Of a stretch of 64,000 nucleotides of DNA, positions 9,245-57,519 are shown one piece after another. Each line of letters starts with the position of its first letter. Positions within the stretch are counted from its first letter, which is position 1. Origin of the DNA: Porphyrobacter sp. (GTDB taxonomy: Bacteria; Pseudomonadota; Alphaproteobacteria; Sphingomonadales; Sphingomonadaceae); assembly GCA_016125555.1 (NCBI GenBank), contig WGLN01000007.1, positions 1-64,000 of the forward strand, read 5' to 3'. A program made the position numbers and the translations under genes. The notes under the pieces are model-generated. The model ran no database searches. It had not been told where the DNA came from and saw nothing but the letters and a program-made list of their open reading frames with translations.

Positions 9245-9966
9245 TGGATGTGAACGGCAAGGTGGTGCTGCTGACCGGCGGCAGTGCGGGCATCGGGCGC
9301 GAACTCGCGCGGAAGCTCAAGGCGAAGGGCGCGGAGGTGATCCTGACGGGACGCGATGCGGCGCGGCTCGAAGCGATGCGCAGCGAGGGTTTCGCGGTGC
9401 TCGCCGCCGACCTGTCCAACGCGGAGGGCGTCGATGCGCTGGTGGCGGCGCTCGGCGAGCGCGACATCGACATCCTGATCAACAATGCCGGGCAGGGCGT
9501 CGCCCACGATTTCCGCGAGGGGGCGCCCGATCCTGATGCGGCCGACGCCTGCATCTACGCCAACCTGAACGCCCCGATCCGCCTCACCGCCGCGCTGCTG
9601 CCGCGGCTGCGAGCAAGACCGGAGGCCGCGATCGTCAACGTCACCAGCGGCCTCGCCATCGCCCCGCGCGCGGGCAGCCCGGTCTATTGCGCCACCAAGG
9701 CTGCCTTACGGAGCTACACGCTCGCGCTGCGCGCGCAGCTTGCGGGCGAGCGGGTGCTGGTGGTGGAGGCGCTGCCGCCGGTGGTCGACACGCAGATGAC
9801 CGCCGACCGCCCCAAGGGCAAGATGCCACCGCAAGAATGCGCGCGCCAGATCCTCGCCGCGCTCGAGGGCGGGCGGAGCGAGGCGAACGTGGGACTGACC
9901 AAGGTGCTGCGCGCGGTCTATTCGGTTTCCCCCGCGCTCGCCCGGGCGGTGATGATCCGCTACTAG
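9244..9966 (+). CDS. classical SDR family oxidoreductase
   Basis: This 240-residue classical short-chain dehydrogenase has the cofactor motif TGGSAGIG at 11-18, the structural NNAG motif, and catalytic Ser, Tyr and Lys in [10 protein letters not shown] and YCATKAAL. It resembles DltE-type oxidoreductases of unknown substrate. Its ATG shares a base with the stop of the preceding SDR gene (TGATG), which implies coupled translation and perhaps a joint reaction. No substrate can be assigned from sequence. Confidence 0.85.
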
Positions 9967-9971
9967 GCGCC

Positions 9972-9991
9972 CGGCCGCATGGGCGCGGCCG
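9972..9991. terminator. hairpin after the SDR pair
   Basis: CGGCCGC at 9972-9978 pairs with GCGGCCG at 9985-9991 across a 6-base loop, 5 bases after the SDR stop. It has no T-run, so it is a weak terminator candidate. Confidence 0.4.
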
Positions 9992-10090
9992 TGTCGCGGC
10001 GCGCTTCCTCCCCGCTCGCCACTTTGGCACGTTGACGCTCGGGACGCGCTCGGGCAACGCATCGGACAAAGCCAATCGAGAGGGATGCCA

Positions 10091-11623
10091 GTGTCCGCCA
10101 ACATCGCCGAAATGGAACGCCGCCGCGAAGCCGCCCGCATGGGAGGCGGGCAGAAGCGCATCGACGCCCAGCACGCCAAGGGCAAGCTGACCGCGCGCGA
10201 GCGATTGGACGTGCTGCTCGACGAAAGCAGCTTCGAGGAGCTCGACACCTATGTCGAGCATGATTGCCAAGACTTCGGCATGGAAAGCCAGCGAATCCCG
10301 GGCGACGGGGTGGTGACCGGCAGCGGCACGATCAACGGGCGGCTGGTCTACGTCTTCAGCCAGGACTTCACCGTCTTCGGCGGCTCGCTGTCGAAGCGCC
10401 ATGCCGAGAAGATCTGCAAGGTGATGGACACCGCGATGAAGGTCGGCGCGCCCGTCATCGGCCTCAACGATTCGGGCGGGGCGCGCATCCAGGAGGGCGT
10501 GGCGAGCCTCGGCGGCTATGCCGAGGTGTTCCAGAGGAACGTGCTGGCGAGCGGCGTGGTGCCGCAGATCAGCCTCATCATGGGGCCCTGCGCGGGCGGG
10601 GCGGTCTATTCCCCCGCGATGACCGACTTCATCTTCATGGTGAAGGATTCGAGCTACATGTTCGTCACCGGGCCGGACGTGGTGAAGACCGTCACCAACG
10701 AGGTCGTGACGCAGGAGGAATTGGGCGGGGCGGTGACCCACACCACCAAGACCAGCGTCGCGGACTTGGCCTATGAGAACGATGTCGAGGCGCTGCTGGC
10801 GACCCGCCGTTTCATGGACTTCCTGCCGCTGTCGAACCGCGAGGACGTGCCGACGCTTCCGACCAGCGACCCGTGGGACCGTCTGGAAAACAGCCTCGAC
10901 ACGCTGATCCCCGACAACGCCAACCAGCCATACGACATGCACGAGGTGATTTCGAAGGTGCTCGACGAGGGCGATTTCTTCGAAATCCAGCCGGCCCACG
11001 CCGCCAACATCATCTGCGGTTTCGGCCGCATCGAGGGCCGCACCGTGGGGGTGGTGGCGAACCAGCCGATGGTCCTCGCCGGCGTGCTCGACATCAATTC
11101 CTCGAAGAAGGCCGCGCGCTTCGTGCGGTTCTGCGATGCCTTCGAGATCCCCATCCTTACCTTCGTCGACGTCCCCGGCTTCCTCCCCGGCACCGCGCAG
11201 GAGCTGGGCGGGATTATCAAGCACGGCGCCAAGCTGCTCTTCGCCTATGCCGAGGCGACCGTGCCCAAGATCACCGTCATCACCCGCAAGGCATACGGCG
11301 GGGCCTATGACGTGATGGCGAGCAAGCACCTGCGCGGCGATCTCAACTACGCCTGGCCCACCGCCGAAATCGCGGTGATGGGCGCGAAGGGCGCGGTGGA
11401 GATCATCTTCCGGCAGGATCGCGACAACCCCGAGAAAATCGCCGAGAAGACCAAGGAATACGAAGACCGCTTCGCCAACCCCTTCGTGGCGGCGCAACGC
11501 GGCTATATCGACGAGGTGATCCATCCGCACTCGACCCGGCGGCGGATTGCCTTGGGGCTACGCAAGCTGCGGACGAAGCAGTTGGAGAACCCGTGGAAGA
11601 AGCATGACAACATTCCGCTGTGA
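10091..11623 (+). CDS. pccB: propionyl-CoA carboxylase beta chain
   Basis: This is the carboxyltransferase subunit that moves CO2 from carboxybiotin to propionyl-CoA to give methylmalonyl-CoA. I prefer GTG 10091 (510 residues) because GAGAGGG is correctly spaced from it; ATG 10085 is the alternative. Family features include the [15 protein letters not shown]-terminus, [12 protein letters not shown], the acyl-CoA site [23 protein letters not shown], the second site [14 protein letters not shown], and [13 protein letters not shown]. Location beside methylmalonyl-CoA epimerase and mutase supports propionyl-CoA over acetyl- or methylcrotonyl-CoA. The biotin-bearing partner is at 19469-21523. Confidence 0.93.
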
Positions 11624-50737: not shown

Positions 50738-53500
<2,763 letters not shown>

Positions 53501-53749
53501 TCGGGGGCGACGGCGGGGGCTGCCCACCGAGCAACCTCGCCCCGCTTCACGGGTCTTCGTAAACCGATCGGGCTTTGTGATTGTCCGTCGTCGCATCGAA
53601 CATGAACCGGCGGCTTCCGGGCACCAGTGGGGATGCTAGGAATACGGAAGAAGCGAAGCGGCGGGGCTGGCGCGCGCCCCTCGGCGGCCGGACGCAGTGC
53701 CGGCACTGCTGCGGCCGGGGGAAACCTCCCGTCCTGATCGTCAATTCCT
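53501..53749. other. gene-poor stretch after secA
   Basis: No coding sequence is convincing here on either strand. The open frames across it, including a minus-strand one running over the secA end, have compositional features of GC-rich shadow frames. A GGGGCGA/TCGCCCC pair right after secA is too loosely spaced to call a terminator. The right end leads into the candidate promoter of the 53814 gene. Confidence 0.5.
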
Positions 53750-53778
53750 TTGCTTTCGGCTCGCGGAAGGCGTATTTT
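53750..53778 (+). promoter_or_regulatory. candidate sigma70-type promoter for the lasso-like precursor gene
   Basis: TTGCTT (53750-53755), a 17-base spacer, then TATTTT (53773-53778), ending 35 bases before ATG 53814. Spacing is ideal and both boxes stand out in GC-rich DNA. AAGG at 53797-53800 may serve as a rather distant ribosome binding site. Confidence 0.5.
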
Positions 53779-53813
53779 GCGGCGGGCCGCCGATCCAAGG
53801 CAGACGATACCGC

Positions 53814-53963
53814 ATGGAAGACGCGAAAGCGGGGAGCGTGAAGCTCCCTTACGCGACGCCGATGGTGATCCGCTATGGTTCCGTGCGCCAGCTGACCGGA
53901 GGCAGTTTCGGTCAAAACGGCGATGGGATGGGAACCAAGCGGGGGACCAACGGCCGCCGCTGA
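53814..53963 (+). CDS. putative lasso-peptide-like (RiPP) precursor
   Basis: A 49-residue peptide. The segment YATPMVIRYGSVRQLT (residues 13-28) fits the lasso leader rule YxxPxLxxxGxxxxxT, with Val at the Leu position. Thr28 would be the penultimate leader residue, making Gly30 the first core residue. The core starts GSFGQNGD, so Asp37 is at core position 8, right for a Gly1-Asp8 macrolactam ring. A 12-residue Gly/Arg/Thr tail ending NGRR follows. No lasso cyclase, peptidase, RRE protein, transporter or isopeptidase gene is in the window; a TonB-dependent receptor gene starts 514 bases downstream. It has its own promoter candidate. Peptide identity is inferred from motif only. Confidence 0.6.
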   Translation: MEDAKAGSVKLPYATPMVIRYGSVRQLTGGSFGQNGDGMGTKRGTNGRR

Positions 53964-54477
53964 CCGGTCCAAGGACCGTCGGAGCCCGAGGCTTTCTCAG
54001 CCGGTCCCGCCGGCTCTCCCGTCTGACACCTTGGCCCCTCGTGCGGCCGCGGAACCCCTTTTGCGACCGCTTCTGGACGGGGTCCCCCATGATTGTGAGG
54101 CGTCTCGAGATTGCCGCCCGCGCGTGCGCAACCACCGCGTTTTTGGGGCTGACGCGCCCGTCGCACCGCTCCTTTTCGGGCACCTGTCACTCGACGGATT
54201 TCCTGAGCGCTTGGTCGAGCATGGCCCGCGAATGGGTTGCGAATCTAACCTGAATTGATGTTCATGCACGCCCCTGTAGCTACCTGCTAGTGTGGCAAGT
54301 ATTGCGTCATAAAAACATAGTAAAATCACTGTGTTGCATAATTGTGACTCGCAATAGCCGAATATTCGCAGTCTAACCTTGCGCGTTGCCGAGATGTCGG
54401 CCTCCAGCCATGCTTATGGGGCTGGCCCTTTCTTCGGGTCACCCCCTAAACGAGTATTTCGGAGGCAACTCTCTCTC
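53964..54477. other. intergenic region upstream of the TonB-dependent receptor
   Basis: A 514-base stretch. A small hairpin CGGTC/GACCG (53965-53978) follows the lasso-like stop. Open frames at 53964-54260 look non-coding: Arg/Ser/Pro-rich, no start with a good ribosome site. From about 54250 the DNA becomes AT-rich (for example CATAAAAACATAGTAAAAT), which is likely the receptor's promoter region. The start codon of the receptor is preceded by CGGAGG. I see no lasso maturation gene or remnant here. Confidence 0.5.
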
Positions 54478-57400
54478 ATGAAACGTAATTTGATGAAGCT
54501 TCAGGATGTCCGCCTGATGGTCGGCACCGGTGTGCTGGCGATCGCCATGTCGCTGCCGTCGGTCGCCGCCGCCCAGGAAGCCCCGACCGCTCAGGACAAC
54601 GCCGATGGCGACATCCTGCCCGGCGCCGCGCAGGACCCGGCGGAGAACGCGATCGTCGTCACCGGCACGCGCATCCAGCGGCCCGAAGCCGCCGCCAACA
54701 CCCCGATCGTTGCGGTGACCGCCGAGAACATCGTCCAGTCGGGCGTCACCAACGTCACCGAGCTGCTCACGCAGACCCCCGCGCTGTTCAACTCGGAAAA
54801 CAACTTCGCCGCCGCGGGCTCGCAGGCGCGCACCGGCGCCGCGGGCGTCAACCTGCTCAACCTGCGCAACCTCGGCGCCAACCGCACGCTGGTGCTGGTC
54901 GACGGCCGCCGCCACGTCGCGGGCGTCTCGGGTGAGGCCGCGGTCGACATCAACACCATCCCCGTCGGTCTGATCGAGCGAATCGACGTGCTCACCGGCG
55001 GCGTCTCGTCGGTTTACGGCGCGGACGGCGTCTCGGGCGTGGTCAACTTCATCATGCGCCGCGACTTCGAAGGCGTCGACCTGCGCGCGCAGAGCGGGAT
55101 TTCCGATTTCGGCGACGCCGAAACGCAGTTCCTCTCGGCCACCGTCGGCACCAACTTCGCCGATGATCGCGGCAACATCGCGGTCTCCTACGAATACCGC
55201 AAGAACGACCGCGTCGCCTTCAGCGACCGTCCCTTCGGCCGCGACGATGCCGAGCGCCTCGTGCGCAACCCGGACGACATCCCCGACGATCCGAACGTCC
55301 CCGACCGGGTGTTCTTCCGCAATCTCGGCTATGCCGACAGCTCGCCCGGCGGCGCGCTGGTGCTCGACGGCAGCTACGCGCCGGTGTTCAACGGCAATGG
55401 CACGCCCTATGATCCGGGCATCTTCCTGCCGCAGTCGGGCTTCCTCTCGGTGGGCGGCGACAACACCCCGATCGCCAGCTACCAGGGCGACCTCCAGGCC
55501 GCGACCGAGCACCACTCGTTCAACGCCTTCTTCAACTACCAGCTGACCCCGGCGATCCGCTTCTTCGCCGAAGGCAAGTACGTGAAGAGCGACAACTTCA
55601 CCGTCGCCCAGCCCAGCTTCGACTTCTACACCTACATCTCGCAGGACAACCCGTTCATCCCGGACAATGTTCGCGCAGCGGGGCTGGACGAGTTCGGCGG
55701 GCTGCTGTTCAACCGCGACAACTTCGATTTCGGCACGCGCAACGAGAACTTCAAGCGTGACCTCTATCGCACCGTCGTGGGCTTCGACGGGGACCTTGCC
55801 GATCACGTCCGCTTCGAGGCGAGCTATGTCTATGGCCGCAACGACACGACCTACATCTCGACCAACCAGCGTATCGAGGACCGCTATTTCGCGGCGCTCG
55901 ACGTGGTCGACGTGGGCCAGTTCACCACCGGCACCCCCAACGGGGTCTACGACTGCCGCGTGAATGTCGATGGCGGCGCGATCGTCGATGCCGGCAACGG
56001 CAACTATGGCGAGGCCCCGCAGACCTTCCAGCCGGGCGAGTGCGTGCCGCTCAACATCTTCGGCGAAGGTGCGCCGAGCCAGGCCGCGCTCGACTTCATC
56101 CTCACCGATACCCGCAACAAGTACCTGATCCAGCAGCACGTCGCGAACGCCTATATCTCGGGCGATTTCGGCCGCTTCTTCGAGCTTCCGGGCGGTGCGG
56201 TGAACTTCGCGTTCGGCGGTGAATACCGCAAGGAAAAGAGCGATTTCCGCCCCGACGCGATCTCCACCCAGGTGACCGACTTCGATCCCGACACCGGCGT
56301 GCTCGCCGACCTCGCCCTGCTCGGGAACGAGACCGGCCAGTTCGACGTGTGGGAAGTCTTCGGCGAGCTCAACGTGCCGATCATCGCCGACCGGCCGTTC
56401 TTCGAGATGCTCGAGTTCACCGTCGCGGGCCGCTATTCGGACTACTCCACCGTGGGCAGCACCGAGGCATGGTCGGTCAACGGCCAGTGGGCGCCGATCC
56501 GCGATGTCCGCTTCCGCGGCGGCTATTCGGAGGCGGTCCGCGCGCCGAACATAACCGAGCTGTTCGCCCCCCGCTCGGGCACCTTCGCGTTCCTCAGCGA
56601 TCCGTGCAGCCCGATCAACATCAACCAGGGTTCGGAATTCCGTGCCGCGAACTGCGAGGCGCTGATCACCGGGCTGGGTGCCGATTTCGACACCTTTGAC
56701 TTCGAAAGCGACATCGCCTCGAGCGCGAGCATCGAAGGGGTCTTCTCGGGCAACCGGAACCTGCGCGAGGAATCGGCCAAGACCTGGACCGCCGGCGTGA
56801 TCGTGCAGCCGCGCTTCGTGCCCGGCCTCATCTTCACCGCCGACTGGTACGACATCAGCCTCAGCGATGCCGTGCGCACCCCGGGCCTGCAGGAGACGGC
56901 CGAGTTCTGCGTCGATTCGCCGACGCTCGACAACGTCTTCTGCAACTCGATCACGCGTGAACAGGGCACCGCCTTCGTCACCAACTACCAGCTCGGGCCG
57001 CAGAACGTCGCCTTCATCGACACCGCGGGTCTCGACATGACGGTCAGCTACCGGTTCGAGCCGGGTGACGGGAAGCTGGGGACCTTCAACCTCAGCGGCA
57101 CGGTCGGCTATCTCGACAAGTTCGAGTTCCTGCCGGCGAATGGCGGCACGGTCGACGTGCAGCGCGGCGAGATCGGATATCCCAAATGGAGCGGCGTGGC
57201 CGACCTCACCTGGGAGCTCGACAACGTCAGCGTCAACTACGGTGTACAGTACATCGGCGAACAGCTGCGTTTCGAGAACGACGTGATCGCGGCCGAACCC
57301 GACATCGCGGCGCCCGAGTTCCTGAAGCTCGACGCCCGCTTCGTCCACGATCTGCGCGCCGAGTTCCGCACCGACAACGAGAAGGCGAGCTTCTTCGTCG

Positions 57401-57519
57401 GGGTGAACAACCTGACCAACGAGCAGCCTTCGCGCGGGCTTTCGAACGCTCCGGTGGGCTGGCTCGGCCGGTACTTCTACGCCGGGATCCGGATCAACAC
57501 CGACAGCATCGGTTTCTGA
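54478..57519 (+). CDS. TonB-dependent outer membrane receptor
   Basis: This 1013-residue receptor probably imports a large or scarce substrate using TonB energy. A signal peptide (to about residue 32, SVAAA) is followed by AIVVTGTRIQRPEAAANTPI, a TonB-box/plug start. The plug domain continues VTNVTELLTQTP to VLTGGVSSVYGADGVSGVVN. A large barrel follows and ends AGIRINTDSIGF with the terminal Phe expected for BAM targeting. CGGAGG lies 12 bases before ATG 54478. This size class is abundant in sphingomonads; the substrate cannot be predicted. It sits just downstream of the lasso-like precursor gene and ends at a strong terminator. Confidence 0.93.
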   Translation: MKRNLMKLQDVRLMVGTGVLAIAMSLPSVAAAQEAPTAQDNADGDILPGAAQDPAENAIVVTGTRIQRPEAAANTPIVAVTAENIVQSGVTNVTELLTQTPALFNSENNFAAAGSQARTGAAGVNLLNLRNLGANRTLVLVDGRRHVAGVSGEAAVDINTIPVGLIERIDVLTGGVSSVYGADGVSGVVNFIMRRDFEGVDLRAQSGISDFGDAETQFLSATVGTNFADDRGNIAVSYEYRKNDRVAFSDRPFGRDDAERLVRNPDDIPDDPNVPDRVFFRNLGYADSSPGGALVLDGSYAPVFNGNGTPYDPGIFLPQSGFLSVGGDNTPIASYQGDLQAATEHHSFNAFFNYQLTPAIRFFAEGKYVKSDNFTVAQPSFDFYTYISQDNPFIPDNVRAAGLDEFGGLLFNRDNFDFGTRNENFKRDLYRTVVGFDGDLADHVRFEASYVYGRNDTTYISTNQRIEDRYFAALDVVDVGQFTTGTPNGVYDCRVNVDGGAIVDAGNGNYGEAPQTFQPGECVPLNIFGEGAPSQAALDFILTDTRNKYLIQQHVANAYISGDFGRFFELPGGAVNFAFGGEYRKEKSDFRPDAISTQVTDFDPDTGVLADLALLGNETGQFDVWEVFGELNVPIIADRPFFEMLEFTVAGRYSDYSTVGSTEAWSVNGQWAPIRDVRFRGGYSEAVRAPNITELFAPRSGTFAFLSDPCSPININQGSEFRAANCEALITGLGADFDTFDFESDIASSASIEGVFSGNRNLREESAKTWTAGVIVQPRFVPGLIFTADWYDISLSDAVRTPGLQETAEFCVDSPTLDNVFCNSITREQGTAFVTNYQLGPQNVAFIDTAGLDMTVSYRFEPGDGKLGTFNLSGTVGYLDKFEFLPANGGTVDVQRGEIGYPKWSGVADLTWELDNVSVNYGVQYIGEQLRFENDVIAAEPDIAAPEFLKLDARFVHDLRAEFRTDNEKASFFVGVNNLTNEQPSRGLSNAPVGWLGRYFYAGIRINTDSIGF

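Follow-up and report, generated by a model that had tools for sequence, protein, structure and literature searches.

A lasso-peptide precursor homologue downstream of secA, encoded apart from the maturation clusters of the same Porphyrobacter genome

Results

The precursor gene and its surroundings

The window analysed here, a 64,000-nucleotide stretch of one contig (C13) of Porphyrobacter sp., contains at 53814..53963 (+ strand) a short open reading frame (ORF), which runs from an ATG at 53814 to a TGA at 53963 and which we list as an unlinked lasso-peptide precursor gene. Its product, MEDAKAGSVKLPYATPMVIRYGSVRQLTGGSFGQNGDGMGTKRGTNGRR (49 residues plus the stop), is divided into a leader (residues 1-29, 53814..53900, +), recognised from the sequence and from the invariant columns of a 21-row alignment, and a predicted core, GSFGQNGDGMGTKRGTNGRR (53901..53960, +), the cleavage site after Gly29 being placed there because a Thr sits at position -2. 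Counting Gly30 as core position 1, the leader has Tyr13 at -17, Pro16 at -14, Gly22 and Thr28 at -2, and the predicted ring extends from Gly30 to Asp37 (core 8), leaving a tail of 12 residues. The first-pass annotation had described this frame with these same residues, and on these points its description is borne out. Its leader rule, YxxPxLxxxGxxxxxT, holds for the Tyr, Pro, Gly and Thr, with residue 18 (-12) being Val where Leu is expected. This is the single deviation from the lasso-precursor motif (YxxPxL...Gx5T, with Thr at -2), and Gly30 and Asp37 supply the ring residue 1 and the Asp/Glu at core 7-9 that such precursors have.

The homology tests agree with this reading. The NCBI lasso-leader model NF033521 scores the ORF at 22.2 bits (cut-off 19), and in a genome-sized search a 19-row profile of related peptides, from which the window peptide and its ortholog had been left out, recovers it at E 1.6e-12; a smaller profile, built from ten rows regarded as cluster-linked, gives E 8e-10. 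A single occurrence of the strict pattern (leader, Gly1 and Asp/Glu8) was found in the window, against zero in 60 order-2 Markov windows. Judged from its sequence, the ORF is a genuine lasso-precursor homologue, that is, a member of a known gene class at an unusual location, and the chemistry that homology assigns to it is ordinary lasso chemistry.

The ORF had also been credited with its own promoter (TTGCTT-17-TATTTT, 53750..53778, +), which we find unsupported: it has 7 of 12 consensus matches (3/6 for TTGCTT and 4/6 for TATTTT), a promoter scan over 53480-54480 listed no site, and the + strand of the window holds 156 promoter-like sites that are equal or better (one per 410 bases). Being no better than chance, it was rejected as evidence for the gene. 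Overlapping it, at 53751-53772, there is a stem-loop followed by TTTT, which is terminator-like (2 found vs 1.2 expected). The upstream neighbour is an ORF at 50738..53500 (+), presumably secA, with its start set by eye at the first Met of the typical SecA N-terminal sequence, and the downstream neighbour encodes a TonB-dependent receptor (54478..57519, +; PF00593, PF07715). A link between this receptor and the precursor was considered and rejected, with no match to the receptor in ten secA regions of relatives, in 15 other unlinked-precursor regions or in the two lasso clusters described below.

Lasso maturation genes elsewhere in the genome

The home genome (3.07 Mb in 20 contigs, 99.99% complete) was searched as a whole with PF13471 and PF00733. 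Matches to PF13471 lie on contigs C19 and C1, each close to a PF00733 match, and contig C13, window included, has no match to either family. An unnoticed lasso cluster inside the window was therefore rejected, and the earlier remark that the window lacks maturation genes stands for the B protease and the cyclase. In both the C1 and the C19 clusters there is a B2 protease over the NF033537 cut-off, together with a PqqD-type RRE; B protease, RRE and cyclase thus occur in the same genome as the precursor, which itself lies apart from them on C13, whereas adjacency is usual for (but not strictly defining of) lasso precursors. Lasso B and C homologues, whose absence the first-pass annotation had named among the grounds for refutation, are in this way found in two B2/RRE/cyclase clusters.

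In the C1 region (L010), an ORF assigned by eye to the ABC type is accompanied by genes for the PqqD protein, for an HPr-kinase-like protein that scores below curated cut-offs, for a precursor, for a cyclase (whose best NCBIfam match is the lasso cyclase NF033535, at 249.7 bits and below the cut-off of 525) and for B2. Its precursor, MIKSEAKAEYKAPKLEAFGSVRNLTGGSTGRNNDGGGTRRV, is the best other match of the window peptide in the genome (54% identity over 35 aa, E 4.7e-7), and the two are alike in both leader and core (GSTGRNNDGGGTRR vs GSFGQNGDGMGTKR), with a core of 15 residues in the C1 precursor and of 20 in the window peptide. When the window core was scored against 31 linked cores (from 30 genomes; the G003, G005, G011, G064 and G096 cores are absent from the list), the home C1 core had the top score (35, the next being 27). 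The home core was never the best match when ten other unlinked precursors were compared in this way (ranks 2 to 20 of 31), so likeness to the home core is no general rule. The C19 precursor is of another type, differing from the window peptide in the leader end and in the core.

Conservation among relatives

In a sample of 114 genomes of the genus, the window peptide as query gave matches in 30 (E<=0.01), and a 21-row profile (A1, with the window peptide among its rows) found 64 places in 44 genomes; the named records of relatives belong to Erythrobacter, Porphyrobacter and neighbouring genera. The 21 rows show no variation at Tyr, Pro, Gly, Thr -2, Gly1, Ser2 and Asp8. The leader motif alone was used to pick out 64 distinct peptides from the fetched loci and the window; 60 of them carry Asp at core 8 and the remaining four at core 9 (taken from the printed rows), as required by a macrolactam ring, and 62 have Ser at core 2. 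Alignment in relatives, which had been proposed as a check, hence finds the leader, Gly1 and Asp8 conserved; with the NF033521 score and the leave-out profile, this keeping of the pattern supports the lasso-precursor reading. B2 (NF033537) is matched in 69 of the 114 genomes, above the cut-off in 67. In a wider family sample, a match at E<=1e-5 was obtained in 14 of 397 genomes, which belong to 3 of the 96 genera, and all eight of the family matches outside the genus adjoin a cyclase.

The secA site and the Erythrobacter fulvus ortholog

The end of SecA was detected in 111 of the 114 genus genomes, 30 of which were examined at the DNA level, and a peptide downstream of secA was found in two of these: the window and E. 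fulvus sf7 (G010). A sensitive profile scan of the other 29 secA stretches (some of which end early at contig ends) returned only the G010 peptide, and none of the remaining A1 places (of 64 in total) lies near secA by coordinates, as compared by eye. The ortholog at the secA site is accordingly present in one of the other 113 genomes. It reads MQNEHHKGAKHAYATPVLSVYGSVRQLTGGSNGPHGDGGGSKRAGTGPK and is located after secA and a TauE-type gene. About half of the residues are common to the two orthologs, and, Val at -12 aside, the other leader residues, Gly1, Ser2 and Asp8 are retained in both; between the genes there are 17, 15 and 26 differences at codon positions 1, 2 and 3 (8, 5 and 16 over residues 13-41). 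The secA tree neither joins nor firmly separates G000 and G010.

In G010 there is no B2 match (NF033537), PF13471 matches are weak only, and the cyclase search gave a sole, cyclase-like match (28% identity, E 4e-28, where linked cyclases reach E 1e-111 or lower). The G010 peptide may be a leftover, may have another role, or its machinery may have been overlooked.

Unlinked precursors across the genus

Defining as linked any A1 place within 15 kb of a B2 match, 38 of the 64 places are linked, and the lasso proteins of the two clusters served as queries against the remaining 26. Seven of these were dropped because they adjoin a cyclase or kinase gene (G005:C1:345182, two in G046, G064:C1:1040803, G062, G066 and G088), one in G095 was excluded as degenerate, and one in G067 because it matches weakly (E 8.7e-5) and its stretch shows no lasso gene. 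What is left is 17 unlinked precursors with an intact leader in 16 of the 114 genomes, two of them in G110. Except for G010, each of these genomes (15 of 16) has in addition a precursor with the same type of leader that is linked to B2 or to a cyclase, the linked status of G064 resting on a precursor beside a cyclase with an internal TAG. Of 17 genomes having an unlinked place, 16 contain a linked precursor, vs 19 of the 97 others (Fisher p 4e-9), in a table that includes G095 and whose linked list omits weaker B2-linked matches (E 3.5e-5 to 0.006, in G017, G037, G047, G057, G078, G079 and G104).

Several of the places set aside deserve a description of their own. The G095 reading (L166:7929-8120, -) is an unlinked, precursor-like one that has lost the leader Tyr, has the leader end FTEGSG and looks decayed. 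In G064 (L173:7977-9857) the precursor adjoins a lasso-type cyclase interrupted by the one internal TAG, probably a decaying cluster, and in G046 (L172, about 9660-10210) two tandem precursor-like ORFs, with Cys in their cores, lie beside a cyclase.

Twelve of the unlinked precursors, in 12 of the 114 genomes (G024, G040, G063, G096, G101, G106, G014, G109, G094, G005, G064 and G011), occupy a single site between a transporter-like gene (assigned by eye) and a TauD-type gene (loci L185-L187, L191, L194, L196, L199-L203 and L211), and their cores vary widely. Within the 43 genomes having the TauD gene, all 12 carriers of the site precursor hold a linked precursor of this type, and the site precursor is found in none of the 19 that lack a linked one (p 3e-4), 10 of which do have some B2 match. 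The site precursor requires 7 changes when mapped on a tree that covers 30 of the 43 TauD proteins, whereas shuffling gave a mean of 9.6, with 36 of 500 shuffles reaching so low a number, and a comparison of independent pairs on this tree gave one supported pair and no significance. Both co-occurrence p values (4e-9 and 3e-4) are weakened by kinship, which is a possible cause of the association between unlinked and linked precursors.

Some precursors carry a C-terminal Peptidase_S74-like domain, both unlinked (L088, L089, L167 and L170) and cyclase-adjoining ones (L137:7890-8333, L142:7980-8354 and L143:7965-8333). PF13884 is over its cut-off in the two that were tested (G064 and L137), the others having been judged by eye, and a literature search on lasso peptides with S74 domains found nothing relevant.

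Discussion

The reading that we consider probable is that the window gene encodes an unlinked second substrate, which the enzymes of the C1 cluster would mature in trans into a 20-residue lasso peptide. The PqqD-type RRE (B1) of that cluster would bind the leader through its YxxP part, the B2 protease of the cluster would cleave after Gly29, the cyclase would join Gly30 to Asp37 to close an 8-residue ring, and the ABC-type transporter would export the product, for which a mass of 2033.956 Da is predicted. The window gene would then be a diverged relative of the C1 precursor, with one enzyme set yielding two related peptides. Maturation in trans, which the first-pass annotation had offered as one option, gains support at the level of sequence from the two B2/RRE/cyclase clusters, one of them with a closely similar precursor. 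The top score of the C1 core against the window core, and the linked precursors found in 15 of the 16 genomes with unlinked ones, point the same way; expression, the cleavage site, trans processing, threading, export and activity are all inferred. Against it stand the E. fulvus ortholog with its missing B2 match, the unsupported promoter, the Val at -12, the ranks of the home core for the ten other unlinked precursors, kinship, and the finding of an ortholog at this site in just one of 113 other genomes.

Several of these points would suit a relic, meaning a lasso-precursor copy that has ceased to be expressed or processed and is degenerating: the lack of a supported promoter, the Val at -12, the occupation of the secA site in just one other of 114 genomes (G010, itself with no B2 match) and the existence, in G095, of a plainly degenerate unlinked copy. 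Yet the other leader residues, Gly1, Ser2 and Asp8 are retained between orthologs that have only about half of their residues in common, third codon positions differ most between them, and the machinery of the home genome looks intact, so we consider decay unlikely. The persistence of the E. fulvus ortholog, with neither a B2 match nor a close cyclase match, would rather fit a leader-like peptide that is used otherwise and does not need lasso enzymes. This new use of the leader motif, also raised by the first-pass annotation, is unneeded in the home genome and possible for the B2-less ortholog; for the window peptide we regard it as quite improbable, since Gly1 and Asp8 are kept along with the leader, which is simply explained only by a lasso role, and since linked precursors accompany the unlinked ones in 15 of 16 genomes.

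Maturation by the C19 cluster instead of C1 has in its favour that RRE, B2 and cyclase genes are present there too; the different leader end and core of the C19 precursor, and the C1 precursor being the best other match of the window peptide, make it very improbable. As for a chance ORF, the short length and the absence of a listed promoter would allow it, but it was rejected on the NF033521 match, the leave-out profile E-value and the Markov control, to which the ortholog at the same site can be added, and its probability is negligible.

Beyond the proposed C1-matured substrate of the home genome, we tentatively suggest, with slightly less than even confidence, that the Erythrobacter group has a split lasso system, in which one cluster would serve precursors at fixed, unrelated chromosomal sites (after secA, and between the transporter-like and the TauD-type genes), some of these precursors carrying an S74 chaperone-like domain. 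If so, different peptides would be under different local controls, with one knot-tying machine in common. If unlinked precursors are processed in trans, a cluster taken alone does not reveal its full range of products, and precursors may acquire new regulation independent of the enzymes. The E. fulvus ortholog, with no B2 match, offers a natural test of the role of the peptide once the machinery is gone. What is novel is the arrangement, with substrates at sites apart from one enzyme set.

Lasso mining generally starts at the cyclase or the protease and then inspects the neighbours, so that unlinked precursors would escape it. In a search of mostly open-access literature, passages of PMC13352647, PMC4289311 and PMC12710340 included, we found nothing on unlinked lasso precursors. 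According to PMC11006600, a Sphingomonas lasso B2 mutant is impaired in phenanthrene use, which indicates that lasso clusters can matter to sphingomonads.

The arrangement proposed here can be compared with three known systems. Prochlorosins are lanthipeptide precursors that are scattered and served by one synthetase; like them, the window-type precursors are remote from a single enzyme set, but the chemistry and the enzymes differ and there are far fewer such precursors per genome. A second likeness is to lasso clusters of the A B1 B2 C K D type, in which B is split and a kinase is present (PMC5067487 and PMC8498205): the window precursor has the leader motif with Thr at -2, Gly1 and an acidic residue 8, and the C1 cluster has a PqqD-type B1, B2, a cyclase, an HPr-kinase-like gene and an ABC-type ORF. 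Unlike that type, the window gene lies on C13 beside secA, with the enzymes on C1 and C19, and its core is longer than that of the C1 precursor (20 vs 15 residues). Roles in B1 binding and leader removal are described for the leader residues at -17, -14, -12 and -2 in PMC10368454, where Ser3 of BsfA is the target of the kinase BsfK, and because of this the Ser at core 2, near kinase-like genes, suggests by analogy that it may be phosphorylated. In citrulassin, according to PMC12971885, the deiminase is encoded elsewhere in the genome, so that there too one part of a lasso pathway is unlinked from its cluster, although what is unlinked is a tailoring enzyme, whereas in the home genome it is a substrate.
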